Part shown: piece by piece, positions 110 through 14,715 of the stretch
Layout: every line of letters begins with the position of its first letter
Position numbering within the stretch: position 1 is the stretch's first letter
Source of the DNA: Gammaproteobacteria bacterium
GTDB taxonomy: Bacteria > Pseudomonadota > Gammaproteobacteria > Enterobacterales > Alteromonadaceae
NCBI GenBank assembly: GCA_018820995.1
Contig: JAHJNE010000659.1
Span: 1-32,215, forward strand
Direction: 5' to 3'
DNA length: 32,215 nt
Notes under the pieces: generated by a model
What the model saw: only the letters and a program-made list of their open reading frames with translations
What the model was told of the DNA's origin: nothing
The model's database searches: none
Position numbers and translations under genes: made by a program

Positions 110-1276
110 AGGAACATTGTCTTGTCATACCAACATATTTTTAAAAAGTCTGTCAATTTATACCTCACTCCATGTTTGTTCGTGTTGGCTTGCACCTTAA
201 ATCAGGTCAAGGCTGCGGCGGTCGATCCACAAGCCGCAAAACCATCACACGACGCTACGCCTGCCACGAGCACTCTTTTGCCACGCTATTCCGAGTTGGT
301 AAACGTCGGTACCCAAAAGTTTCATATCCGGCGGATGGGACCCGTTGCAGCACAAGTAAAGGCGCCAGTCGTGGTGTTATTATCCGGTCCGAATAAAAAT
401 TTCCATGCCGACAGCGCCTGGTTTGCATTATTGCAGCCGTTATTGGCGCAAAGCTATAACGTCATCGCCATTGACCGGCTTGGCAATGGTTTTAGCGATG
501 ATGCAGACAATCTGTCTTATCAGCGTTTTAGTCAGGATTTAGTCAGTTTGCTGCCCGCCATCACAGATCAGAATGTGATACTGGTGAGTTTTGCCAGCGC
601 CAATATTAGTGCGCAGTTGTTTTATCAACAGGCTCCCACAGGGCCGGCGGCCAGTCAGGTTAAAGCGATGATCTTGATTGATCCGGATATTCCAACACCA
701 GCAGCATTAGCGCTTTATCAGGGTTATCCGGTGGATTGGTATCAGCAGCACTTGCAACAATTACTACCGGAATTGGCCAAAGGTGTTTGGAATCAACGCA
801 CTTTAGATAAGCTAAAAGCCGAGCGGGCGGAAATTACTGCCCTGCTAAATCCAGAGCATCAGGCACAAATGGATTGGGACTATTTCGATCAGATCAGTCA
901 GCAACGAAAAACGCCCAAACGCCAACAGCAACGCGCTATAGAAATTGCGCACTATGCCAAAGATTTAGATTTATTCGCCGCCCTGCCTGCCATCAGCGAC
1001 ATCCCGGTTACCGTCATAGACAGCGATTTTGAAACGATGGATATCGCCGCAGATCCAAGCCAAGCCGGGCAGCTGCAGTTATGGCAACAACAAGGCAGTG
1101 CCTGGAGCAAACAGTTGGCAAACTCTTCAGGTGGTCAGTATCTGCCACTTGCGAACAGCCACCACCTGGTGATGTTTCAACATCCGGAAAAGATCCTGGC
1201 AGCAGTCGATTGGCTGCGGATCAAAATTTCACAGCCAGCTGCGGGCACCGCCGGCCTAAAAGGTTCACGGCCTTAA
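104..1276 (+). CDS. Secreted alpha/beta-hydrolase-fold protein with altered nucleophile elbow
   Basis: 390 residues. The N-terminus looks like an export signal: basic start, hydrophobic segment around residues 17-30, possible cleavage after VKA near residue 37; a lipoprotein site at Cys30 is less likely. The mature part follows the alpha/beta-hydrolase plan: VVVLLSG near 90-94 (oxyanion strand), IAIDRLGNGFS near 121-131, nucleophile strand ILVSFASAN near 159-166, LIDPD near 191-195, and a C-terminal SHHLVMFQHPEKI matching the catalytic-His region. At the elbow, where GxSxG is expected, the sequence reads SFASA, so the usual nucleophile Ser aligns with Ala; the protein may be non-catalytic or use a shifted Ser. 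The start is uncertain: no clear ribosome site, the ATG sits in a hairpin, and the frame is open to the window edge. The substrate is unknown. It converges on agaK, sharing TTAA as both stops. Confidence 0.75.
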   Translation: MVRNIVLSYQHIFKKSVNLYLTPCLFVLACTLNQVKAAAVDPQAAKPSHDATPATSTLLPRYSELVNVGTQKFHIRRMGPVAAQVKAPVVVLLSGPNKNFHADSAWFALLQPLLAQSYNVIAIDRLGNGFSDDADNLSYQRFSQDLVSLLPAITDQNVILVSFASANISAQLFYQQAPTGPAASQVKAMILIDPDIPTPAALALYQGYPVDWYQQHLQQLLPELAKGVWNQRTLDKLKAERAEITALLNPEHQAQMDWDYFDQISQQRKTPKRQQQRAIEIAHYAKDLDLFAALPAISDIPVTVIDSDFETMDIAADPSQAGQLQLWQQQGSAWSKQLANSSGGQYLPLANSHHLVMFQHPEKILAAVDWLRIKISQPAAGTAGLKGSRP

Positions 1277-2202
1277 ATCAGACTTTCACGCCTGCCATCC
1301 GCTGCACGCAAGCCAAGAATAGCCGCACCACGTTCACCGGATGCGGCGCCAAATTCTGCAGTTTTAAGCGGCGGCACCGAAGCGCCTGCAAACAGATGAC
1401 GCGCAATGGCCGCTGGCAGCGCCTGGTGAATTTCCTCCAGATCGGATAAACCGCCACCGATCACAATCACATCCGGATCATATGCCAATACCTGACTGGC
1501 AAGACATGCCCCTAAGGCGTCCATATAACATTCAAAGGTGTGCTTGGCCGTCATATCGCCGCCACGAAATGCGGTAATCCAATCGTAGGTGGTTAAGCTT
1601 TGTTGGCTAAAATGGCTGTATAGCCGTGCCAGGCCAGTGCCGGAAATATATGTTTCGGCACACCCTTTTAAACCACAACCGCAGTCATACAGTGGCAGCT
1701 GGTATTTTGCCAGCACGCGTCCCGCCACCGATTGATGCCCAAACTCACCCGCCAGCTGTTGCGGCCCCTGATACAACTCACCATCGACACAAAGACCGCC
1801 GCCGGCGCCAGTGCCTAAGATCACGCCAAACACTTTGTTGTAACCACGCCCGGCACCGAGCATCGCTTCTGATAACACAAACAAACGGCAGTCGTTCCCC
1901 AAAGCCACCGGTCGTTGCAGCCGCGCCACAAGATCGGCCGCCACGGTGCGTTGATTTAAACAAGCCACGTTGGAGGAAATAACCAAACCTTGCGGAGCCA
2001 CCACGCCTGGCAAGGCAATCCCGACCGGAGCCCGCTTACCTAGTAATTGATCGGCTTTGTCGATTTGCGCCGAAATTGTCTGCAAAAACTGCGGATAATC
2101 ATCGGTCGGCGTCGGTACCCGCCAGCGCTCAAGCAGCTGAAATTGCTCTGTAAATACAGCAATTTCTATTTTAGTCCCACCGATATCCAAACCGTACACC
2201 AT
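1273..2202 (-). CDS. agaK: ROK-family amino-sugar kinase, probable N-acetylgalactosamine kinase AgaK
   Basis: 309 residues, normal for cytoplasmic ROK sugar kinases. The ATP-binding start GLDIGGTKIEIAVF is at residues 4-17. LGNDCR places the catalytic Asp at 104, GTGAGGG is near 130-136, EFGH (Glu153, His156) contacts the sugar, and DCGCGLKGC (Cys174, Cys176, Cys181) is the ROK zinc site. The family phosphorylates GlcNAc, ManNAc, glucose or fructose at O6; placement after agaS in a cluster with agaR and agaZ points to GalNAc to GalNAc-6-P, the role shown for AgaK in Shewanella. It starts inside the agaS stop (TGATG), indicating translational coupling. Its stop shares TTAA with the convergent gene at 104-1276. 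The alternative is a GlcNAc kinase (NagK-like), which sequence alone does not exclude. Confidence 0.85.
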   Translation of the reverse strand: MVYGLDIGGTKIEIAVFTEQFQLLERWRVPTPTDDYPQFLQTISAQIDKADQLLGKRAPVGIALPGVVAPQGLVISSNVACLNQRTVAADLVARLQRPVALGNDCRLFVLSEAMLGAGRGYNKVFGVILGTGAGGGLCVDGELYQGPQQLAGEFGHQSVAGRVLAKYQLPLYDCGCGLKGCAETYISGTGLARLYSHFSQQSLTTYDWITAFRGGDMTAKHTFECYMDALGACLASQVLAYDPDVIVIGGGLSDLEEIHQALPAAIARHLFAGASVPPLKTAEFGAASGERGAAILGLRAADGRRESLI

Positions 2203-3407
2203 CAGCGGTTTCCTCTGGCTGCTGTCAAAACTACATCACGGGCAAAGGCTGCTGTTTCAGGCAGAGGATAAATGGTCACCCCTTGCACCACCCGGTTCAC
2301 TTCACCACCAGGGCAAGGGTTATCGGGCGTAACGCCAAGCTGCAATGCTTTGTAAAAAGCTAAAGTCTGGCAGTATACAATATAAGGAAAAGCCGACCAG
2401 ACATCTGTCATGGCAGAGTCGGGCAAAGTCGCCCAGTCAGCAATATCCAGCTCAGTAATGGCTTGCGCCCGACCATTCGCCTGCAATTCTTGTTGTAAAT
2501 CCTGATCATAAAGCCGGCTATAAGCGTCACAGGATTTCAGCAGTACAATGTGGGTTTGCCCATCCACCAGTGATTTAGGGCCGTGGCGAAATCCGAGCGG
2601 ACTTTCGTAATAACTACCGATTTGCCCTGATGTCAGTTCCAGATATTTCAGGGCTGCTTCCTGCGCAATGCCTTTTAAACAACCTGCGCCCAGAAACACG
2701 ATGCGCCGGCAAGGCGTTTGCGCTAACTGCCGAATGGACTGATGCTGTAACAACACTTGTTCGCTCAGCAGCGTGGCCTGCTGGAAAGCCTGCACATCGG
2801 GCGCAAATAATAATAAGGTTGCCAGTAACATCCCGGTGAAACTACTGGTCATTGCGAAGCTGCGATCGTGACAGGCATCCGGCAATAACCACAAGGCGCA
2901 ATTAGCTTTGTCTTTGGCAAACCGCGCCAGCTGGCCGTCGGCATTGCAACTAATCATTAAATGAAAGCTTTGCGCCACCAGCGCGTCGACCACAGCAAGC
3001 GCCGCAACACTTTCCGGGCTATTACCAGAGCGACCAAAACTAACCAATAAGGTTGGGATTTCAGCAGTTAAATATAACTGTGGGTGACTGACTAAATCGG
3101 TGGTACTGATGGCTTCGATCCGTTGTCCAGGCAGCGGTAACTTGTTGATTAAATGTGGTACCACGGTCTGACCGATATAAGCAGATGTCCCAGCGCCGGT
3201 GAAAATAATCCGCAAATTCGGTAAGGCTAGTAGCGGCTGCAGCCAACTGCGCAAGCTCGCTTCAATGGCGGTAAATTCAGTTGCCAATTGTTGCCAGATC
3301 GCTGGCTGTTGCGAAATTTCCTGCGCTGTCCAAGACGCGCCTGCCTGCTGCAATTGTGCTGTGCTAAGACCCAGCATGGTTGAATTTTTATCTGCACACA
3401 CGACCAC
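2202..3407 (-). CDS. agaS: AgaS: galactosamine-6-phosphate deaminase/isomerase (tandem SIS domains)
   Basis: About 401 residues, cytoplasmic. Two SIS domains as in AgaS and the isomerase half of GlmS: the first begins near IIFTGAGTSAYIG and carries VSFGRSGNSPES; the second begins near RIVFLGAGCLKGIAQEAALK and carries the ESPLGFRHGPKSLV loop. The family converts galactosamine-6-P to tagatose-6-P plus ammonia, the deamination step of GalNAc use in E. coli and Shewanella. The start is ambiguous: TTG at 3428 lacks a ribosome site, ATG at 3377 is weakly supported, and I chose GTG at 3407 because AGAGG lies 7 nt upstream. It lies about 170 bp after agaZ and is coupled to agaK through TGATG. No CTTTC box lies in the agaZ-agaS gap, so it is probably read through from the agaR promoter. 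Confidence 0.88.
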   Translation of the reverse strand: MVVCADKNSTMLGLSTAQLQQAGASWTAQEISQQPAIWQQLATEFTAIEASLRSWLQPLLALPNLRIIFTGAGTSAYIGQTVVPHLINKLPLPGQRIEAISTTDLVSHPQLYLTAEIPTLLVSFGRSGNSPESVAALAVVDALVAQSFHLMISCNADGQLARFAKDKANCALWLLPDACHDRSFAMTSSFTGMLLATLLLFAPDVQAFQQATLLSEQVLLQHQSIRQLAQTPCRRIVFLGAGCLKGIAQEAALKYLELTSGQIGSYYESPLGFRHGPKSLVDGQTHIVLLKSCDAYSRLYDQDLQQELQANGRAQAITELDIADWATLPDSAMTDVWSAFPYIVYCQTLAFYKALQLGVTPDNPCPGGEVNRVVQGVTIYPLPETAAFARDVVLTAARGNR

Positions 3408-3577
3408 CGAACCACCTCTTTTTTCCAAAATCGTTACTATCTAACCAGTCATTTCAGTACTGTTGTTTGGCACAGATACTGATACTGCTTCAAATAGACA
3501 TCAGCTTGTGCAACACCAGCCTTAAACAACAACGTATACAGCTGGCATTCCACAACACACCAAAAAATATCAATCTC

Positions 3578-4870
3578 TTAGGCAGCGACGGATAACCCAC
3601 AGGCTGTCGCATAACGAGCGGTCACCTGCCTGATTTTGTGTTGAATCAGCGCTTGTGGCGTTGCCGCCAGATCGCCGTTGAGCACGGCCTCATATTGCAC
3701 CGGCAAAAACTGACTGAGCAGTGGCAATGGGATGGCTTGCGTCGCAAGGTTCTGACAAAGTTTTTCAACTGCAGCGCGGATCAACGGCAGGTTCCAGTAA
3801 TAACGGATGCGATCGCTGTAACTGAATTGGCGCAGCAACGATTGTTGCTCGGCGCTCACTTGATAAAATGCCTGCCAATAATCAGGCTGGCGCTGCATTT
3901 CACGCTCACAAATGGCAATCAGGCAAGATTGTTGTTCAATCGGCAGCAACTGCTCTTCAATTAAACAAAGCGCAAACAGTGCTTCGCGCAAGGCAAAAGT
4001 CAGTTGTGGCCCGACTTTTAAAATCGCAAAATGCTGACGCACCAGTTGCTGATAGGCCTGTGCTGGCTGGTAATCGGTGGAATGGGCTTCATACACCACA
4101 TGTGGCACATCCCGGATAAAACTGGCCAAAGCAGCGGTTTTATCCGCCTGAAAGCGATGCACACTGGTATTGTCAAATTCGACGCCCGGCTGTACCACAA
4201 CCGCAATCACTCGTTGCCATACGGCTTCGGTCAATCCTGCCTCTGCAAAAGCCTGCTGATGGTCAAGCAGCGTTTGTGCGACATGGCCAACCGGCGTCAC
4301 TGCCAGGCTTGCCTCTAAACTTGCCACGCCACCCGGCGCCGGTACTTCCGTGCCAATGACATAACAAAGTTCACTGTGGCCAAACTGTTGCATCGACGTT
4401 TGTTCAGCAACCTGACACAACCGTGCTGCACGTTGTGCGATCAACGTATCGGCTAAAGGCAGCACATCATCGGCACAGGCCATACTGGTATCTAAATGAA
4501 TTTTTTGAAAACCTGCTGCGACATACACTTCGATCAGCTTCTCGGCTTGTGCCATCGCTTGCGCGGCGGGTTGATGTTTCCAGCACACCGGGCCTAAATG
4601 ATCACCACCAAACAGGATCTGCTGTCGACTCAGGCTAATTTCATCAGCTAACTTAAATACAAAATCTATAAAATCAGAAGGTTGCATGCCGGTATAACCG
4701 CCATACTGATTGACCTGATTGGCAGTCGCTTCTATCAGCAGTTTGCTGCCATCTTGCTTTGCCTGCGCCAGCGCTGCCATCAGCACCTGCGGGTGCGCTG
4801 AACAAACCGAATAGATCCCCAAGGGCTGACCCGCTTTGTTCGCGCGGATCAATTCAAGCAAAGCTTTCAT
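3578..4870 (-). CDS. agaZ: AgaZ/KbaZ: tagatose-1,6-bisphosphate aldolase subunit or tagatose-6-P kinase
   Basis: 430 residues, typical of the KbaZ/GatZ/AgaZ family. Family stretches visible: an N-terminal IYSVCSAHPQVLMAAL, IEATANQVNQYGGYTGM, FGGDHLGP, KIHLDTSMAC, YVIGTEVPAPGG and FAILKVGPQLTFALREALF. The family was described as the non-catalytic partner of the class II aldolase KbaY/GatY and has been proposed as a tagatose-6-P kinase; sequence cannot decide. Either way it acts on the product of AgaS. The ATG has AGGAG about 6 nt upstream, and that ribosome site overlaps the end of agaR 10 bp away, so the two genes are co-transcribed. No kbaY/gatY partner is in the window. Confidence 0.88.
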   Translation of the reverse strand: MKALLELIRANKAGQPLGIYSVCSAHPQVLMAALAQAKQDGSKLLIEATANQVNQYGGYTGMQPSDFIDFVFKLADEISLSRQQILFGGDHLGPVCWKHQPAAQAMAQAEKLIEVYVAAGFQKIHLDTSMACADDVLPLADTLIAQRAARLCQVAEQTSMQQFGHSELCYVIGTEVPAPGGVASLEASLAVTPVGHVAQTLLDHQQAFAEAGLTEAVWQRVIAVVVQPGVEFDNTSVHRFQADKTAALASFIRDVPHVVYEAHSTDYQPAQAYQQLVRQHFAILKVGPQLTFALREALFALCLIEEQLLPIEQQSCLIAICEREMQRQPDYWQAFYQVSAEQQSLLRQFSYSDRIRYYWNLPLIRAAVEKLCQNLATQAIPLPLLSQFLPVQYEAVLNGDLAATPQALIQHKIRQVTARYATACGLSVAA

Positions 4871-4880
4871 AACACTCCTG

Positions 4881-5654
4881 TTAACTGATGATTTGCACGT
4901 GCACCCCCATCCGGGTCAATTCTTCGACATACCCGGCCGGGATACCGGCATCTGTCACTAATGTATGGACCTGATTTGCCGCGCAAATCAGATGAAACCC
5001 ACGACGTTCAAACTTCGATGAATCGGTGACCACGATAATTTCCCGTGCCACCTCACACATCAGCCGGTTGAGCGTCGCTTCAGCTTCAAAATGGGTTGAT
5101 AGCCCGGTTTTTAAATCAAAACCGTCCACCCCCAGCACCACTTTGTCGAACTGAAAATGACGCAGTGCCTGTTCGGCCTGAGCACCGTAAAAAGACATTG
5201 ATTTCTTGCGTAACAAACCGCCGGTCAACATCACTTCAACTTTGTCGAAAGTTGCCAATTCAGTGGCGATATTCAGCCCATTGGTCATCACAATCAGATT
5301 TTTGTGCTCTGACAAACAAGCCGCTACTTCTTCCGTCGTCGTACCGGAATCAAGAATAATTCGCTCGTCATCGGCAATCAGCGCCGCCACAGCCCGGCCC
5401 AGTTTTTGTTTTAAATCTGAATGTTTCTGCCGCTTCTCTTTGAGCGACAATTCACGACTTAAATCATCATTCACCATGGCACCGCCGCGTGAACGAACCA
5501 CCAGCCGCTTACTATCGAGCGTCGCGAGATCGCTACGAATAGTCACTTCCGACACGCCAAAACGCTGCGATAAATCGGCCACCGATACTTTGCCCTGCAC
5601 TTGCGTCAACCGGACAATCTCTTGCTGCCGCTCAATCGTATTTAAACTTTCCAC
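4881..5654 (-). CDS. agaR: AgaR: DeoR-family repressor of GalNAc utilisation
   Basis: 257 residues from the chosen start, the usual DeoR length. An N-terminal winged helix-turn-helix (VSVADLSQRFGVSEVTIRSD, followed by the basic VVRSRGGAM wing) precedes a sugar-phosphate sensor domain with IILDSGTTTEEVA, IVMTNGLNIATEL and VMLTGGLLRKKSMSFYG. The frame is open further upstream to 5747, but GTG at 5654 is preferred: GGAGCAAGG precedes it, and DeoR proteins begin just before a TIERQQEI-like segment. AgaR repressors control GalNAc genes and are relieved by a pathway amino-sugar phosphate. It is the first gene of agaR-agaZ-agaS-agaK and diverges from the TonB-dependent receptor, with CTTTC boxes between, so autoregulation and control of both arms is likely. 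Confidence 0.88.
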   Translation of the reverse strand: MESLNTIERQQEIVRLTQVQGKVSVADLSQRFGVSEVTIRSDLATLDSKRLVVRSRGGAMVNDDLSRELSLKEKRQKHSDLKQKLGRAVAALIADDERIILDSGTTTEEVAACLSEHKNLIVMTNGLNIATELATFDKVEVMLTGGLLRKKSMSFYGAQAEQALRHFQFDKVVLGVDGFDLKTGLSTHFEAEATLNRLMCEVAREIIVVTDSSKFERRGFHLICAANQVHTLVTDAGIPAGYVEELTRMGVHVQIIS

Positions 5655-5710
5655 CCTTGCTCCCTGCCCGCCTGGGGCCAGTTGGTTGTACCTTACCATC
5701 AAAAAATAAA

Positions 5711-5739
5711 CTTTCAATAGCTTTCGTTTTCGATATTTC
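5711..5739 (+). promoter_or_regulatory. Proximal AgaR operator candidate (two CTTTC boxes in phase)
   Basis: CTTTCAATAG at 5711-5720 is followed directly by CTTTCGTTTTCG at 5721-5732 and ATATTTC. The two CTTTC cores are exactly 10 bp apart, about one helical turn, so two DNA-binding domains could sit on the same face. Published reconstruction of proteobacterial AgaR regulons reports a shared CTTTC core in multiple copies and arrangements. The site lies 57 bp upstream of the chosen agaR start, which suits autorepression. Confidence 0.6.
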
Positions 5740-5848
5740 AAAAGCATTTCTGCTTAAAAATGTTATGCCATGCAACTTAAAAATCACAAACAAACAGCAA
5801 CTGTATGTTTTTTATGAGATTAAAATTTAAATATGGCAATACTCAAAC

Positions 5849-5911
5849 CTTTCAATAGAAGTTTCAGATCTATTCGATTTAACAAATAGACTAAAAACAT
5901 ATAAACGAAAG
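5849..5911. promoter_or_regulatory. Distal AgaR operator candidate
   Basis: CTTTCAATAG recurs exactly at 5849-5858, followed by GTTTC at 5861-5865. An inverted copy, CGAAAG, is at 5906-5911 on the other strand. The 10-base identity with the box at 5711 argues against chance. It lies just upstream of the candidate receptor promoter, where a DeoR tetramer bridging both operators could repress both directions. Confidence 0.5.
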
Positions 5912-5922
5912 GCATAAATAAC

Positions 5923-5952
5923 TTGCGATCATTTTCGAATTAACGATATAAC
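5923..5952 (+). promoter_or_regulatory. Candidate sigma-70 promoter for the receptor-GH31 operon
   Basis: TTGCGA at 5923-5928 (4/6 to TTGACA) and TATAAC at 5947-5952 (5/6 to TATAAT) are 18 bp apart. The -10 lies inside a perfect palindrome. The predicted start near 5959 gives a leader of about 135 nt. The -35 match is modest. Confidence 0.35.
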
Positions 5953-5961
5953 AGTATATCG
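5944..5961. promoter_or_regulatory. Palindrome overlapping the candidate -10
   Basis: CGATATA-ACAG-TATATCG is a perfect 7-bp inverted repeat with a 4-bp centre. It differs from the CTTTC boxes, so it may serve another regulator; it could also be chance in AT-rich DNA. Confidence 0.4.
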
Positions 5962-6095
5962 AAGGTTTTGATTGCTGTAGTTATCGTCAATATGTCATTC
6001 ATTTGCTGTTGTGACTGAGTTTACGCCAACCAAGCGTAACTGCGATATGTGCATTCGGGAATTTCATAACAAAAAATAACAAACCGGAGGGGAGT

Positions 6096-8972
6096 ATGTC
6101 AGTTCGCAATGTTTCGCAGGATCAATCGTCATCACATTCACGCAAACCGCACTATTTTTTACAGCCTGGGTTTTCAAAGAGCAAGCTCGCAACCTTAGTG
6201 CTGCTTGCCTTGGCAGGATTGCCCGCAGGCCAGGCGCTGGCTGAAGAGAGCGCCGCCAGCAAAGAAAAATCCGCCAAGGAAGAAAAAGTCGAAAAAATTG
6301 AAGTCACCGGCATTCGCAGCAGTATTAAAGAATCGTTGTTTATGAAACAAAACGCCACCAGTGTAGTCGATGTGGTGGTCGCCGAAGATATTGGCAAATT
6401 CCCGGATGAAAACCTGGCAGAAGCACTGCAACGGATCGCTGGCGTCACTATTACTCGGAACGGTGGCGAAGGACAGAACGTATTAATCCGCGGTTTGGGG
6501 GATGGTTACAACATCACCACCCTTAATGGACGCAAACTAGCCTCAGAAAACAGTGGCCGAGATTTTAACTATGACACTATCGCTTCGGAGCTGGTGAGCT
6601 CTATCGCAGTCTATAAATCACCCGAAGCACGCTTGCAAGAAGGTGGCATTGGCGCCGTTGTCGATATTCAAACCAGAAAGCCTCTTGATTTAAAAGGCTT
6701 GACGATGGCCGCTTCGGCAAAAGGCGTCTATGAAAATCGAACCGGCGAAACCCAGCCCCACCTGTCATTTCTGGTTGGTGACCTGTTTGACGATGGAAAG
6801 TTGGGGGTATTGCTAACAGGCGCTTATTCCGAGCGGACCTTACGCAATGACACCTATTCTGCCGCTGGTTTTTATGATGAAGCTGAAGGCGTGACCGAAG
6901 CGACAATCCCCGTAGATATGAATAAGGATGGGATCATTGATCAAGCCAATGAACTGTTTCCGTCAAAAGTACCGGCTTACATGTATTACGCCAATGCCCA
7001 GGATGTACGAGAGCGACTGGGCGGCACGCTAAATGTGCAATATCAGCCAAACGACTGGATTGATCTCAGTGCCGATGTTTTGTACTCGCGCTACAACACC
7101 AACGGCAATAGATATCAGATCGGCTTCGTCAACTACGATGAAAGCTGGACACCAGGTACGCCAATATTTGGCGATGCTAAATTTGGGGACGATGGCCGGG
7201 TCATTGCCGTCACCCAAACGGCCAACCCGATGGTGGAATTACTGAACCTGACATCCCCACGGAAAACGGATACCTGGCAATTTGGCACGAATGGTAAATT
7301 TCAATTAACTGATCAGCTGACGTTGGTTGCTGACTATTCACACTCAGAAGCCAAAGATCAAAATGCCGGCGACAATCGTTTTATCGTCGCGCGCGGGTTT
7401 GTCGACTCCATTAGCATCGACTACAGCAAAGATAACAAACTGCCGGATGTGACCATTGCTCCGGGGTTAAATGCTGAGCAAAAGTACGGTGCGCATTATA
7501 GCTATAACAGTGGAACCGGCGTCACAGACAAAGTAGATGACCTCAAACTACTGGCCTCTTACACAGTCGATGATTCCATTATCACCAAAATTGATGCCGG
7601 CATTACCTATGTGCAACAAACCAAATCGCGCAGCGAATTCTCTTCAAAAAACCCAAGTCAGTTTAGCAATGGCGGTTTTTATCTGACGCGGGACAAATAC
7701 GCTTTTGACAATAGCACCGTATTCTCACAGGGCGATTTTTCACTCTTCCGGATCCCGACAGATGTCTTTGTACCCGCAAATTTCGACAATTTCCTCGATG
7801 GTGAAGCTGGCGTGCATCCGAGCCCGTGGCCAAGCTTCGATTACGACAAATTACTGTCTTACTACCGCAGTATCAATGCCGAAGCCGCCGACAAAAGCAT
7901 CGTGCCGCAGCTCAATCAAGCCGGTGCTTTTAATGTGAAAGAAGCAATCAGCACCGCCTTTATCCAAATGAACATAGAAGACACCGTCTTTGAGCTACCA
8001 TACTTTTTAAATATTGGCGTGCGCGCCAGTAAAACCGAAGTCACCAGCAGTGGTTTTTCCTATGATTTAGCCAAAGTGGTGCTGGATGGCAATGGCAAAC
8101 CGACTAACAATGACTGGCGCACAGTGCAACAAATTAGTCATGACGGTTCGTACAGCGAGTTACTGCCAAGCCTTAACTTCAAGCTGACGCTACAGGACGA
8201 TCTATTCTTCCGCTTTTCGGCGGCTGAAGTGATGAGTCGTCCAAGCCTTGATCAGTTAAAACCTTGGGCTGCCCCAAACTTCACCACGTTCAAAGAAGGT
8301 TTGCCACAACTCAGTATTAACTTTCCTGATTTACCGCCAGAAATGGCCAAACAGTATGACGCTACACTGGAATGGTATTTTGCCGACAGCAGTCAGCTGG
8401 CAGCTGGGGTGTTTATCAAAGATATTGAGTCTTTTATCAGCACAGAACGCGGCCCGATAGATCTACATGGAGTGAAATATTATGCCGAATATCCGATCAG
8501 CGGCGAATATGGCGCCAGTATCAAAGGTGTCGAGTTATCCTGGCAACAATCGATGGAAAATTGGTTACCAACGCCGTTTGATGGCATGGGTATCCAATTG
8601 AACTATACCTATGTTGACAGCCAGTTTGACGACCCGGAACTGAAGGATATTTCTTATACTGGGATGTCTAAAAATTCCTATAATGCAGTGGTTTATTATG
8701 AAAAAGATGGCATTCAGGCGCGCCTGGCCTACAACTGGCGCAGCAAGTTTCTGTTGTACCCGGGGGATTGGGGCGGCGATAGCTGGATAGCCGATTATGG
8801 TCAGTTAGACGCCAGTGCCAGCTACGACATTAACGAGCAATTGTCGGTGTATACCGAAGTATCAAATCTCACCAACCAGCGCTATTGGGGTTATGTCAAA
8901 CAGGAAGATCAGGTGAACTTTTTGGAACGCTTTGGCACCCAGTTTGCTGTTGGGATCCGCGGTAATTTCTAA
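6096..8972 (+). CDS. TonB-dependent outer-membrane receptor for GalNAc-containing glycans (AgaO-like)
   Basis: 958 residues. A long basic n-region (about 30 residues) precedes the hydrophobic core LATLVLLALAGLPAG, with signal cleavage predicted after QALA near residue 49. A short Lys/Glu-rich linker follows, then the plug domain: IEVTGIRSSIKESL, DVVVAEDIGKFPDENLAEAL, RIAGVTITRNGGEGQNVLIR, and EGGIGAVVDIQTRKP at its end. The rest is a beta-barrel ending in Phe (VGIRGNF), the outer-membrane assembly signal. There is no N-terminal STN domain, so direct sigma/anti-sigma signalling is not expected. The pattern matches the large proteobacterial carbohydrate-linked TonB receptor group. GGAGGGG lies just before the ATG. 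The partner GH31 gene follows in the same direction. A receptor gene belongs to GalNAc regulons in Shewanella; the exact ligand (sugar or oligosaccharide) is inferred. Confidence 0.9.
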   Translation: MSVRNVSQDQSSSHSRKPHYFLQPGFSKSKLATLVLLALAGLPAGQALAEESAASKEKSAKEEKVEKIEVTGIRSSIKESLFMKQNATSVVDVVVAEDIGKFPDENLAEALQRIAGVTITRNGGEGQNVLIRGLGDGYNITTLNGRKLASENSGRDFNYDTIASELVSSIAVYKSPEARLQEGGIGAVVDIQTRKPLDLKGLTMAASAKGVYENRTGETQPHLSFLVGDLFDDGKLGVLLTGAYSERTLRNDTYSAAGFYDEAEGVTEATIPVDMNKDGIIDQANELFPSKVPAYMYYANAQDVRERLGGTLNVQYQPNDWIDLSADVLYSRYNTNGNRYQIGFVNYDESWTPGTPIFGDAKFGDDGRVIAVTQTANPMVELLNLTSPRKTDTWQFGTNGKFQLTDQLTLVADYSHSEAKDQNAGDNRFIVARGFVDSISIDYSKDNKLPDVTIAPGLNAEQKYGAHYSYNSGTGVTDKVDDLKLLASYTVDDSIITKIDAGITYVQQTKSRSEFSSKNPSQFSNGGFYLTRDKYAFDNSTVFSQGDFSLFRIPTDVFVPANFDNFLDGEAGVHPSPWPSFDYDKLLSYYRSINAEAADKSIVPQLNQAGAFNVKEAISTAFIQMNIEDTVFELPYFLNIGVRASKTEVTSSGFSYDLAKVVLDGNGKPTNNDWRTVQQISHDGSYSELLPSLNFKLTLQDDLFFRFSAAEVMSRPSLDQLKPWAAPNFTTFKEGLPQLSINFPDLPPEMAKQYDATLEWYFADSSQLAAGVFIKDIESFISTERGPIDLHGVKYYAEYPISGEYGASIKGVELSWQQSMENWLPTPFDGMGIQLNYTYVDSQFDDPELKDISYTGMSKNSYNAVVYYEKDGIQARLAYNWRSKFLLYPGDWGGDSWIADYGQLDASASYDINEQLSVYTEVSNLTNQRYWGYVKQEDQVNFLERFGTQFAVGIRGNF

Positions 8973-9037
8973 TGTTCAGTGCTCATGCCGTTGAGAAGCA
9001 ATAAACGCTTGGTCAACGGTATGCCACCCACTGCATC

Positions 9038-9092: not shown

Positions 9093-12000
9093 ATGGGTAT
9101 TCGTTGTGGTCAGACTTTATTCGCGCTGGCTGTCAGCCAAACACTGGCGATGGCTACCGTCGCTGCGCCAATCGGCAATTTACAGCAGATCAGGGCTGAA
9201 ACCAGTCAGGTAGAGATCCAAACAGACCAGCAAGTGCAGCTGCAAATTCAATTATTAAAACCCGATGTTTTCCGACTACAAGCGAGCAACGACGGCAAAT
9301 TTACTGGTCCAGGCAACAAAGCGGCAGCAATTGTCATCAAGCAGGATTATGCCCGCGTTGAGTTCAACCTGAGCGACCAGGGCGACTATCAGTTACTAAA
9401 AACCAGTGCCATGGCGCTGCGTATTTACAAACAACCGCTGAAGTTCGCTTTATATAAAGCTGACAATCAAACGCTAATATTTGAAGAGTTACAACCGCTG
9501 GAACTGGCCAAAGACCTAAGTTTCCAAACCCTCAGCAGTTCTACCGACGAGCGTTTTTTTGGTGGTGGCCAGCAAAACGGTGCCTTTGAATTTAAAGGCA
9601 AAACCATGGATATTTCTTATTCTGGCGGCTGGGAAGAAGGTGACCGGCCAAGTCCGGCACCATTTTTTATGTCGAATAAAGGGTACGGTGTCCTTCGCAA
9701 TACCTGGGCCAATGGCAGCTACGATTTTCGCTCCAATGAATACATCAATGTAAGCCACCAGGAACAACGCTTTGATAGTTACTATTTTGTCGGTGATTCA
9801 TTAAATGACGTACTGGCCGACTATACCGAACTGACGGGTCGCGCCCGCCTGATCCCACGTTGGGCTTTTGAATATGGCGATGCCGACTGCTACAACGATG
9901 GCGACAATATTAAAAAACCGGGCACAGTGCCGGATGGCTGGAGCGACGGCCCAACCGGCACGACACCAGATGTGATTGATAGTGTTGCCAAAAAATATCG
10001 TGAACACGACATGCCTGGCGGCTGGATTTTACCGAATGATGGATATGGTTGTGGTTACACCAATCTGCCGGAAGTGGTGAAAGGGTTAGCAAAATACGGT
10101 TTTCGCACCGGTCTTTGGACCGAAAACGGCGTGGATAAAATTGCCTGGGAAGTTGGCACCGCCGGCACCCGCGCCCAAAAACTCGACGTTGCCTGGACCG
10201 GTCAGGGCTATCAATTCGCGCTCGACGCCAATAAAGCCGCTGCTGATGGCATTTTGAATAACTCCGACTCACGGCCATTTTTATGGACAGTCATGGGCTG
10301 GGCTGGCATTCAGCGCTATGCCGTCACCTGGACCGGCGACCAGTCTTCCAGTTGGGATTATATCCGCTGGCATATCCCAACCCTGATTGGCTCGGGTTTA
10401 TCCGGTCAGACTTATGCCACTGGTGATGTTGACGCCATTTTTGGCGGCAGCCCGGAAACCTTTACCCGCGATTTGCAATGGAAAGCCTTCACCCCAGTAC
10501 TGATGGGGATGTCCGGTTGGGCCAAAGCGGCGCGTAAACATCCGTGGTGGTATGACGAACCTTATCGCAGCATCAACCGTGATTATCTGAAGTTAAAAAT
10601 GCGCTTGATGCCGTACATGTACACCACGGCTTATGAAGCAGAAATAACCGGCGCACCGATTATCCGTGGCTTGATGTGGGACTATCCGCAAGATCCATCC
10701 GCATTCACCGAAGCGCATAAATATCAGTTTTTAGTTGGCAAAGATCTGCTGGTAGCGCCGGTTTACCGCTCGATGGCGGCGACTAAAGGCTGGCGTAAAG
10801 ATGTGTATTTACCACAAGGCCAATGGATTGATTACTGGGATGGGCGGGTCGTGACGGCACCGACAACCGGCGCCAAACTGGATTACAAAACCGATCTGAA
10901 AACGATCCCGGTGTTTGTGCGGGCCGGTGCCATTTTACCGATGTATCCTGAATCATTGTATGACGGCGAAAAACCCAAAGATGTGCTGACACTCGACATT
11001 TATCCTTATGGTCAAAGCAATTACCAAATGTACGAAGATGATGGTAATAGCCGCCAATATCAGCAGGGCAAATTCAGTCAGCAACAATTTCGGGTTACTG
11101 CACCTGAAGGTATAGCCGGCGATATTCAAATCAATATCGATGCGGTCAGTGGCGAATACGCAGGTCAGGAACAACAACGGGTTTACCAGCTACAGGTTCA
11201 CAGCCGCATTCAACCTGACCAGGTCACGGTTGCAGGGAAAGTGCTGAAACAACTCAAAGATGCTAATGCTTTTTCCAAAGCCGAAAGCGGCTGGTATTTT
11301 AGCGCGCAGCAATACGGCGTGGTACAGGTAAAAACGGCCAAGACCTCGATTCGTCAGGCGTTGCAATTTGAACTTGCCATCAACCCGGCATTGCCGTTAA
11401 CCCCCACTGCCGGCTATGAACAGGCGCCGGAGCTTGGCAACGCCATTGCCGCGGATAGCTTGCTGGTCTTAAATCGTCCGGCCGAAGAGTCTGGTCATGT
11501 GCTGGAAAACGCTTTTGACGACAATCCAACCACCTGGTTTCGCACCAAACGTGACCAGGCACAAAAAACCGGGGCCCATGAATTTACATTGGCCTTGGGT
11601 GAACGGCGGATGGTCAACGGTTTTGAAATTGCACCACGCAACGATCAGCACTGGAAATATGGTCAGGTGCGCGATTATGAAGTCTATATCGCCGATAACA
11701 ATGGCGAATGGGGCGAGCCCGCGTATCGCGGCACCTTAAAACTGCTGCAAACGATACAAAAAGTTGAGTTTCCAGCCAAAGCCGGCACCCTATTCCGCTT
11801 TCGGGTGTTAAGCACTCAGGATCAGGCCGATGATGGTACAGCGATCGATTCGATGGTGACAGCGGCAGGTGATGATGCTGCGGGCAAGCAAACGGACGAG
11901 CAAAAAAGTAATTCAGATGCAGCGGCTGAGAAACCAGTTGTCGCCAAAGCCTTTAATGCCCTAATCCCAAAACAAGTAACGCCAATCACCATTTCCGAGT

Positions 12001-12485
12001 TTAAAGTGCTGGAACAGCCGCTGCCAAACCAGCCGCAGTTACAACAACCGCTGTCGGAAGTGGTCGCCAGTGTCAGCGAAAATAGCCGTGGTCCGGTTGA
12101 ACTGGATAGTAGCAACGGCGGCAAAAAAGCCAAAGATGGCGCGCAAATGCAAATGAACGGCCTGAAGTTTCGTAAAGGCCTCGGCGTCGCCGGCCACAGC
12201 AGGATTGATTACCCACTGCAAGGCCACTGGCAGTTGTTCCGCGCCGATGTCGGCATCGACGATAGTTGTCGCCAGCATGGCAGTGTGCAGTTCCAAATCT
12301 ATGGTGACGACCAGCTACTCTACGATTCAGGCACTTTACAGGCGCCAGCCGTGGTGAAACCACAACTGGATATTCGCGGCATCAAATTATTGAGCCTGCG
12401 TACCACAGCCGGTCACAGCAAAGTTTGTGCGAATTGGGCCAATGCGATGGTGATTGGTTTTGCCGGGGATAAAGCTGGCAAGTAA
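9093..12485 (+). CDS. Secreted multidomain GH31 glycosidase, probable alpha-N-acetylgalactosaminidase
   Basis: 1130 residues. The frame extends back to a GTG at 8979, but ATG at 9093 has AGAGG 7 nt upstream and opens a clear signal peptide (MGIRCGQTLFALAVSQ, cleavage near TVA-AP); the upstream extension crosses a hairpin. Layout: N-terminal beta-sandwich (about 30-250), GH31 barrel (about 255-600), C-terminal sandwiches (to about 770), CBM32/F5-8C-like module (about 785-975), NPCBM/CBM51-like module (about 985-1125). Likely catalytic residues are Asp365 in KLDVAWTG (nucleophile) and Asp416 in TWTGDQ (acid/base), 51 residues apart. GLWTENGVDKIAWEVG, ATGDVDAIFGGSPETF and the GH31+CBM32+NPCBM build resemble the alpha-GalNAcase branch of GH31 rather than alpha-glucosidases. 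Position beside aga genes supports GalNAc release. It is periplasmic or secreted. Specificity (Tn antigen, blood-group A, other alpha-GalNAc) is inference. Confidence 0.85.
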   Translation: MGIRCGQTLFALAVSQTLAMATVAAPIGNLQQIRAETSQVEIQTDQQVQLQIQLLKPDVFRLQASNDGKFTGPGNKAAAIVIKQDYARVEFNLSDQGDYQLLKTSAMALRIYKQPLKFALYKADNQTLIFEELQPLELAKDLSFQTLSSSTDERFFGGGQQNGAFEFKGKTMDISYSGGWEEGDRPSPAPFFMSNKGYGVLRNTWANGSYDFRSNEYINVSHQEQRFDSYYFVGDSLNDVLADYTELTGRARLIPRWAFEYGDADCYNDGDNIKKPGTVPDGWSDGPTGTTPDVIDSVAKKYREHDMPGGWILPNDGYGCGYTNLPEVVKGLAKYGFRTGLWTENGVDKIAWEVGTAGTRAQKLDVAWTGQGYQFALDANKAAADGILNNSDSRPFLWTVMGWAGIQRYAVTWTGDQSSSWDYIRWHIPTLIGSGLSGQTYATGDVDAIFGGSPETFTRDLQWKAFTPVLMGMSGWAKAARKHPWWYDEPYRSINRDYLKLKMRLMPYMYTTAYEAEITGAPIIRGLMWDYPQDPSAFTEAHKYQFLVGKDLLVAPVYRSMAATKGWRKDVYLPQGQWIDYWDGRVVTAPTTGAKLDYKTDLKTIPVFVRAGAILPMYPESLYDGEKPKDVLTLDIYPYGQSNYQMYEDDGNSRQYQQGKFSQQQFRVTAPEGIAGDIQINIDAVSGEYAGQEQQRVYQLQVHSRIQPDQVTVAGKVLKQLKDANAFSKAESGWYFSAQQYGVVQVKTAKTSIRQALQFELAINPALPLTPTAGYEQAPELGNAIAADSLLVLNRPAEESGHVLENAFDDNPTTWFRTKRDQAQKTGAHEFTLALGERRMVNGFEIAPRNDQHWKYGQVRDYEVYIADNNGEWGEPAYRGTLKLLQTIQKVEFPAKAGTLFRFRVLSTQDQADDGTAIDSMVTAAGDDAAGKQTDEQKSNSDAAAEKPVVAKAFNALIPKQVTPITISEFKVLEQPLPNQPQLQQPLSEVVASVSENSRGPVELDSSNGGKKAKDGAQMQMNGLKFRKGLGVAGHSRIDYPLQGHWQLFRADVGIDDSCRQHGSVQFQIYGDDQLLYDSGTLQAPAVVKPQLDIRGIKLLSLRTTAGHSKVCANWANAMVIGFAGDKAGK

Positions 12486-13754: not shown

Positions 13755-14534
13755 TCAGCGGTTGCCCTCGCATGCTAACTCCACCAAAGATTGGGCATTA
13801 ATACGGTAACGCTCTTGCAGCAATAAGTACTTTTCATCTTGAAACAACGACTTCAGCGCTTGATCAAAAGCTTTTGCATCTTCGACTTTGCGAAAAGCGG
13901 CACGGTAATAACTGGCTGGGAATAAAGGATGAATAGTGACCTGTTGCAGGGGGACGATTTTATCATTGTGATAATTAAATATATTTACATCCATCACCAA
14001 CGCCTGCACTCTTTTGCGCAGTAACGATTCCACCTGACTACTTTGCTCAACGGTTTCCCGGTATTTGTAGGAGTTTTCGACCGCGCTCCGATATTCATCA
14101 CCCAGCAGCTGCGATGCATTTTGAAACGCTAATACCGATAAATCCTTCAAATCACTCAACTGCACGATCGACAATGCATCGGCTTCCAAAGTAATCACCA
14201 CATTCTGATAACGAATATAGGGACAGCTATAAAACAGTTCAGGCTCGTTAGCGGACATCGGCTGTAAAGTCGCAATATCGCCAATCCCTTGCTGTAACAA
14301 CGTTTGGATTCGCTTATTCGGAACGTGGGTAAATTCTGCGCGGTAGCCCATCCGTTGCACAACTTCGCGTAATAACTCAAGCTCAAAACCGTCCGAGGTT
14401 TCAATCTGAATATAGGGCGGCTTGCTCATCCCAACCAACACTTGCAGCGGCTGTTTATCTCGAGCCTCAACCTGAAATCCAAGCTGTACCGCCAAAATTA
14501 CCAGCCACACCCATACCCGACCAATGTTTGTCAT
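13755..14534 (-). CDS. Orphan periplasmic substrate-binding protein (SBP family 3-like)
   Basis: 259 residues from the chosen ATG, which opens a signal peptide (TNIGRVWVWLVILAVQLGFQ, cleavage near VEA). The frame is open to an ATG at 14615, which would add a second hydrophobic segment; I prefer the shorter form, although neither start has a strong ribosome site. The mature part has the bilobed family-3 pattern: LQVLVGMSKPPYIQIETSDGFELELLREV, then GIGDIATLQPM, PYIRYQNVVIT, LKDLSVLAFQNAS and the SLLRKRVQALVMD region. No ABC permease or ATPase is nearby, so it may be a stand-alone sensor or polar amino-acid binder of the kind common in Alteromonadales. The ligand is unknown. Confidence 0.7.
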   Translation of the reverse strand: MTNIGRVWVWLVILAVQLGFQVEARDKQPLQVLVGMSKPPYIQIETSDGFELELLREVVQRMGYRAEFTHVPNKRIQTLLQQGIGDIATLQPMSANEPELFYSCPYIRYQNVVITLEADALSIVQLSDLKDLSVLAFQNASQLLGDEYRSAVENSYKYRETVEQSSQVESLLRKRVQALVMDVNIFNYHNDKIVPLQQVTIHPLFPASYYRAAFRKVEDAKAFDQALKSLFQDEKYLLLQERYRINAQSLVELACEGNR

Positions 14535-14715
14535 AAGAGCATCCGGCGAAGTCATACCTGTTGCAAGCATAGTTGGCACAACTGTGATTAATCCAGCAAG
14601 TACAATAACTATCATCGCGAAGGGTGCGACCTATTGTCGCAACATCTGGAATTGTTGAATTTTAGTCGATAGTATAAATCCAGATATTTTTGATATTCAG
14701 TGAGTTACTCAATCT

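Follow-up and report, generated by a model that had tools for sequence, protein, structure and literature searches.

A predicted AgaR control region shared by the divergent arms of a GalNAc-utilisation locus in Rheinheimera

AgaR systems and the locus in Rheinheimera

The AgaR regulon of Shewanella, reportedly described by Leyn et al. in 2012, is said to rest on a CTTTC consensus that occurs in multiple copies and arrangements. In Shewanella sp. ANA-3, the operon agaR-GH109-kbaZ-agaS-agaK-agaA-agaP lies divergent to a TonB receptor gene, and the same 10-bp tandem box that we describe below precedes agaR by about 60 bp. A review that cites this work (PMC12118421) describes uptake through an outer-membrane receptor, AgaP and AgaK in place of the PTS. 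The AgaR system of E. coli, in contrast, relies on PTS-based uptake, has neither a TonB receptor nor a GH31 enzyme, and gives agaS a separate promoter. In Serratia, AgaR is 47% identical and the CTTTC boxes take another arrangement.

The stretch of DNA analysed here, 32,215 nucleotides in length (the window), carries a locus of the ANA-3 kind. Its AgaR is orthologous to that of ANA-3 (70% identical), and kbaZ, agaS, agaK and the divergent TonB receptor are shared. GH109, agaA and agaP, all part of the ANA-3 operon, are missing from the window locus; GH109 is unlinked, a GH31 gene follows the receptor, and a box is found at nagA-nagP elsewhere in the genome. The source genome is a Rheinheimera, and its AgaR is 96% identical to that of Rheinheimera sp. 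SA_1 and 95% identical to that of R. riviphila. The mechanism of control proposed here is known and ordinary. It is the proposed content of the regulon, namely GH31, GH109 in trans and the capture of nagA-nagP, that is noteworthy. Our search of the literature found no description of an AgaR regulon for Rheinheimera, and the present analysis provides a concrete prediction of one, with a GH31 alpha-N-acetylgalactosaminidase candidate added.

The first-pass annotation, made from the letters of the window, had named the regulator as AgaR. This identification holds, as the protein combines HTH_DeoR and DeoRC domains and scores 335.6 bits against the NCBIfam AgaR model NF040755 (cut-off 260), while kbaZ, agaS and agaK lie directly downstream (Table 1). 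Its probable start is the GTG at 5654, preceded by a GGGAG ribosome site. The mechanically called ATG at 5747 would cross the operator, which the GTG start probably leaves outside the gene.

Table 1. Features of the control region and flanking genes in the window
Feature	Position	Strand	Support or remark
agaK, ROK-family GalNAc kinase	1273..2202	-	ROK kinase families; orthologue in ANA-3 aga operon
agaS, GalN-6-P deaminase/isomerase	2202..3428	-	TIGR02815 445.8 bits, below cut-off 529; orthologue in ANA-3 aga operon
kbaZ/agaZ, tagatose-bisphosphate aldolase subunit	3578..4870	-	TIGR02810 above cut-off
agaR, DeoR-family repressor	4881..5654	-	NCBIfam AgaR NF040755 above cut-off
Inferred agaR promoter, TTGAAA (5712-5717), 16 bp, TAAGGT (5690-5695)	5690..5717	-	Conserved position in alignment
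Main candidate AgaR operator, tandem CTTTCAATAGCTTTCG = CTTTCAATAG-CTTTCG, 10-bp period	5711..5726	+	Conservation, pattern, model
Second exact CTTTCAATAG	5849..5858	+	CCTTTCCGATAG in closest relative; lost in three species
Candidate receptor-side AgaR site, tandem GTTTCAGATCTATTCGA = GTTTCAGATC-TATTCGA, 10-bp period	5861..5877	+
Inverted box CGAAAG	5906..5911	-	11 bp upstream of inferred receptor -35
Inferred receptor promoter TTGCGA-N18-TATAAC	5923..5952	+	Hexamers 6/6 and 5/6 columns invariant
TTTTCG box within receptor promoter spacer	5932..5937		CTTTCG in two relatives, CTTTCA in one
Degenerate inverted box TCGAAGGTTTT just past -10	5959..5969	+	CGAAAGG in relatives; conserved, six species
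TonB-dependent receptor, presumed GalNAc-oligosaccharide receptor (Omp-Aga-like)	6096..8972	+	TIGR01782
GH31 enzyme, F5/8 type C and NPCBM domains	9093..12485	+	Probable ATG 9093

We propose, with high confidence, that the two divergent arms of this Rheinheimera GalNAc-utilisation locus share one control region, the gap between agaR and the receptor gene, through which AgaR would govern both arms and GH31. AgaR would bind CTTTCRAWWN half-sites placed every 10 bp along one face of the helix. Occupation of the tandem over the inferred agaR -35 would shut off agaR-kbaZ-agaS-agaK (autoregulation), and occupation of the set at 5861-5877, 5906, 5932 and 5959, which surrounds the inferred receptor promoter, would shut off the TonB receptor, with GH31 repressed alongside it by read-through. 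AgaK and a deacetylase would make GalNAc-6-P or GalN-6-P, whereupon release of AgaR is expected.

The CTTTC tandem at agaR

The boxes claimed by the first-pass annotation lie where it placed them, as a recount in the window sequence confirmed. Exact forward-strand copies of CTTTCAATAG begin at 5711 and 5849, with no third copy in the window and a total of four in the genome; a further CTTTC starts at 5721, 10 bp past the start of the first copy, and CGAAAG is found at 5906. The gap between agaR and the receptor gene is 441 bp long and contains four CTTTC on both strands, where dinucleotide shuffling predicts 0.88 (p=0.01). Across the whole window, CTTTC is not enriched (43 vs 70 expected). Shuffling gives p=0.0005 for the CTTTC-N5-CTTTC tandem in this gap, and p about 0.07 for any exact 10-mer repeat within its AT-rich sequence. 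Consequently, the 10-bp tandem is non-random, and the distant exact repeat alone is unconvincing.

Conservation separates the two copies further. In an alignment of the control region from six Rheinheimera species (G000, the window genome, with G139, G179, G344, G046 and G263), 19 of the 21 columns at 5711-5731 are invariant, and the tandem CTTTCAATAKCTTTCGTTTT is identical in all six except for one base. Only 7 of 104 columns are invariant between the clusters (5745-5848), and none of the 10 in the copy at 5849, which on this alignment is probably not an essential site. Both copies of the exact repeat exist, as claimed, but the emphasis that had been laid on the repeat was misplaced.

The tandem lies 57 bp upstream of agaR and overlaps the inferred agaR -35. 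A consensus promoter scan finds neither the agaR nor the receptor promoter, the former falling below its threshold. Beyond the window, a tandem box stands 54-63 bp from agaR in 17/17 other sites extracted from four genera; in Rheinheimera, Alishewanella, Shewanella and Alkalimonas, every case examined has a tandem close to CTTTCRAAAGCTTTCGAAAG before agaR. CTTTC counts exceed those of shuffles (p<0.05) in 19 of 22 agaR gaps, many of which are related sequences.

Specificity is evident from pattern searches. Within its own genome, YTTTCRAWWNCTTTCG has a single match, the window site at 5711. It occurs at agaR in 10 of the 12 Rheinheimera genomes that carry this gene (22 genomes in all), and a scan of 10 agaR-less sister genomes gave no match. 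At the agaR site of G160 the sequence is one base off in the second box, and the agaR gap of G275 has an inverted box layout in its place. Further matches in G328 (contig C1) and G160 (contig C70) lie in or beside genes without an evident GalNAc role and were set aside as background. The looser pattern YTTTCNNNNNYWTTCG does not rise above its reversed control in the window genome (21 vs 28); on its own, a loose half-site is therefore uninformative.

A sequence-only model was trained on 12 sites from other species, none of them from the three-species clade of the window, and was applied in each genome to 150 out of about 2,600 first-look candidates. Among the candidates scored in the 4.27-Mb genome, 5710-5728 came top, with E=0.075; the best matches among those scored in three agaR-less genomes had E values of 0.78-1.56. 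The second-ranked of the scored candidates in the window genome (contig C589) lies between two ORFs without an evident GalNAc role and was treated as background.

Could the repeats be chance words of an AT-rich spacer? The shuffling result for exact 10-mers and the poor conservation of the 5849 copy would allow this, and for 5849-5858 alone it is possible. For 5711-5726 it is already contradicted by the improbable tandem spacing, by conservation across genera at a fixed position, by absence from agaR-less genomes and by the top rank in the blind model. As an account of the region as a whole, chance is extremely improbable. The first-pass reading of the CTTTC boxes as an AgaR-type motif is upheld, since they are kept alongside agaR across several genera and are missing from agaR-less sister genomes. 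Its suggested check for conservation in related genomes came out in its favour for the 5711-5726 tandem, which is kept in six Rheinheimera species plus other genera, and against it for the copy at 5849. On the sequence evidence, the tandem at 5711-5726 very probably serves AgaR as a genuine operator.

Proposed control of the receptor arm and GH31

The first-pass interpretation, which we find partly supported and mostly right, had put boxes near both promoters. This is correct, although the conserved receptor-side set comprises 5861-5877, 5906, 5932 and 5959 and does not include 5849. Beside the 5849 copy, GTTTCAGATCTATTCGA has 15 of 17 columns invariant across the six species, amid a divergent stretch. 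At 5906, YGAAA is kept in all six, and the full CGAAAG in two. The predicted receptor promoter reads TTGCGA-N18-TATAAM across the six, with YTTTCR in the spacer, followed by CGAARGG. In Shewanella ANA-3, the box after the receptor -10 resembles the TCGAAGGTTTT of the window. Immediately past the receptor -10, Shewanella, Alishewanella and other Rheinheimera have GAAAG and CTTTC boxes at a spacing of 23-24 bp.

It is conceivable that AgaR operates at its own gene, while the receptor arm, with or without GH31, answers to a different regulator or is constitutive. The GAAA and TTTC words of the receptor arm would then be AT-rich coincidences or promoter elements. Several observations fit this account: the receptor-side boxes of the window are degenerate and are not picked up by the trained model, in which GTTTCAGATCTATTCGA scores low; the 5849 copy is unconserved; and some of the conserved words overlap the -35/-10 region. 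We nevertheless consider it unlikely. GTTTCAGATCTATTCGA is nearly invariant outside the obvious promoter hexamers, the paired boxes past the receptor -10 recur in the genera named above, and the receptor co-occurs with agaR. The divergent agaR-receptor arrangement recurs in Rheinheimera, Alishewanella, Shewanella and Alkalimonas, although in one Alkalimonas the contig stops short of the receptor. A search of agaR-less Rheinheimera genomes for a close receptor homologue found none.

AgaR control of both arms might additionally involve looping of the DNA that joins the two clusters, as the first-pass annotation suggested. E. coli DeoR is known to loop DNA and offers a precedent. In the six species the conserved clusters are 150, 150, 151, 151, 162 and 162 bp apart (14.3-15.4 turns); these spacings differ by roughly one helical turn, which is compatible with looping, and they are kept while the intervening sequence is unconserved. 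However, they amount to effectively two or three independent spacings, and direct promoter occlusion accounts for the layout without a loop. Further, the spacing of the middle box varies by 1-4 bp in other Rheinheimera, Alishewanella and Shewanella, so fixed phasing is not favoured. Such a loop, which could coexist with AgaR repression of both arms, is at most a tentative addition.

GH31 would join this regulon through its position. The gene sits directly behind the receptor, and we found no promoter, terminator or CTTTC in the interval between them, making the earlier extension of the regulon to GH31 plausible. Repression would reach it by read-through, although GH31 may have start signals of its own. 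Its best match among solved structures, and closest solved relative, is the Enterococcus faecalis GH31 alpha-N-acetylgalactosaminidase (6m76/7f7q, E=2e-119; about 400 bits over 720 residues), which, unlike the window enzyme, is a gram-positive wall-anchored protein. In an alignment with the E. faecalis enzyme, D403 and D454 (numbered from the ORF start at 8979) fall at the positions that we take to be those of the catalytic pair. The window GH31 is likely an alpha-N-acetylgalactosaminidase.

GH31 occurs in 10 of the 22 Rheinheimera genomes, three of them without agaR. In G275, no receptor separates agaR from GH31; the two genes face each other directly, and the gap contains four CTTTC against 0.97 expected (p=0.015). 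The three GH31 species without agaR have 0-1 boxes upstream of GH31, which is likely under different control there. In these species (G239, G084 and G286; L039, L040 and L041), GH31 is present without agaR or the receptor and lies near a LysR-like regulator gene; the SBP_bac_3 gene found downstream in the window (13755-14615) accompanies it here too. In R. riviphila (G179, L032:5095-10071), the receptor has given way to a cassette that carries genes for a lantibiotic dehydratase, a LanC-like protein and a glycosyltransferase. What is left is the agaR-receptor gap with roughly the first 8-10 codons of the receptor, and the cassette cuts GH31 off from the boxes.

Candidate sites in trans at GH109 and the nag genes

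A GH109 homologue is present on another contig of the window genome; it is 76% identical to that of ANA-3 and has the GH109 C-terminal domain. Upstream of it lie GAAAGCAATTGAAAG and GTTTCATTTGCTTTYGA, both in 10-bp register; G139 and G179 retain GTTTCATTTGCTTTYGA in full and GAAAGCAATTGAAAG in part. At L127:6503-6527 (contig C619), the tandem CTTTCAATTGCTTTC precedes this unlinked alpha-N-acetylgalactosaminidase homologue, with a second 10-bp tandem closer to the gene. Displacement of GH109 by GH31 was considered and rejected, because GH109 persists elsewhere in G000, G139, G179, G046 and G263.

In the window genome, the only genes resembling agaA and agaP are nagA and nagP, which belong to a nagK-nagB-nagA-nagP cluster and are named by gene order and similarity together with Pfam. 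With 150 of about 2,600 candidates scored per genome, the blind model finds CTTTCGAATGCTTTTGAAG between nagB-II and nagA in G000, G139 and G179, and the window-genome site, an AgaR-like tandem, is at L126:6322-6351 (contig C613). By our rough estimate, the chance of two model sites outside the window falling in about 1.2 kb before GalNAc-relevant genes is <0.001. The nagB-nagA gap has no CTTTC in the other 18 of the 21 nagA-bearing genomes of the genus, nine of them without agaR.

The same three species carry agaR and have no agaA of their own, which, together with the nag box, suggests that AgaR captured GlcNAc genes. As these are sister species, the box represents one evolutionary event. Such a capture is biochemically sensible, because nagA of E. 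coli can replace agaA (PMC3668189). We lean slightly towards AgaR drawing nagA-nagP into the GalNAc regulon, with nagB and nagK keeping a control of their own, a regulatory capture that would offset gene loss. Another regulator of nag genes could instead own this site, and a clear agaA is likewise missing from G263, G046 and G275, yet these have no such nag box. The genus offers a series of species, with agaR and their own agaA, with agaR and a presumably captured nagA, and with no agaR, that lets regulon rewiring after gene loss be traced by single operator changes. In G344, G046 and G263 (L137, L138 and L139), the nagB-nagA gap, free of CTTTC, holds a terminator-like element in which T's come after the inverted repeat ACGAAACCATT...AATGGTTTCGT.
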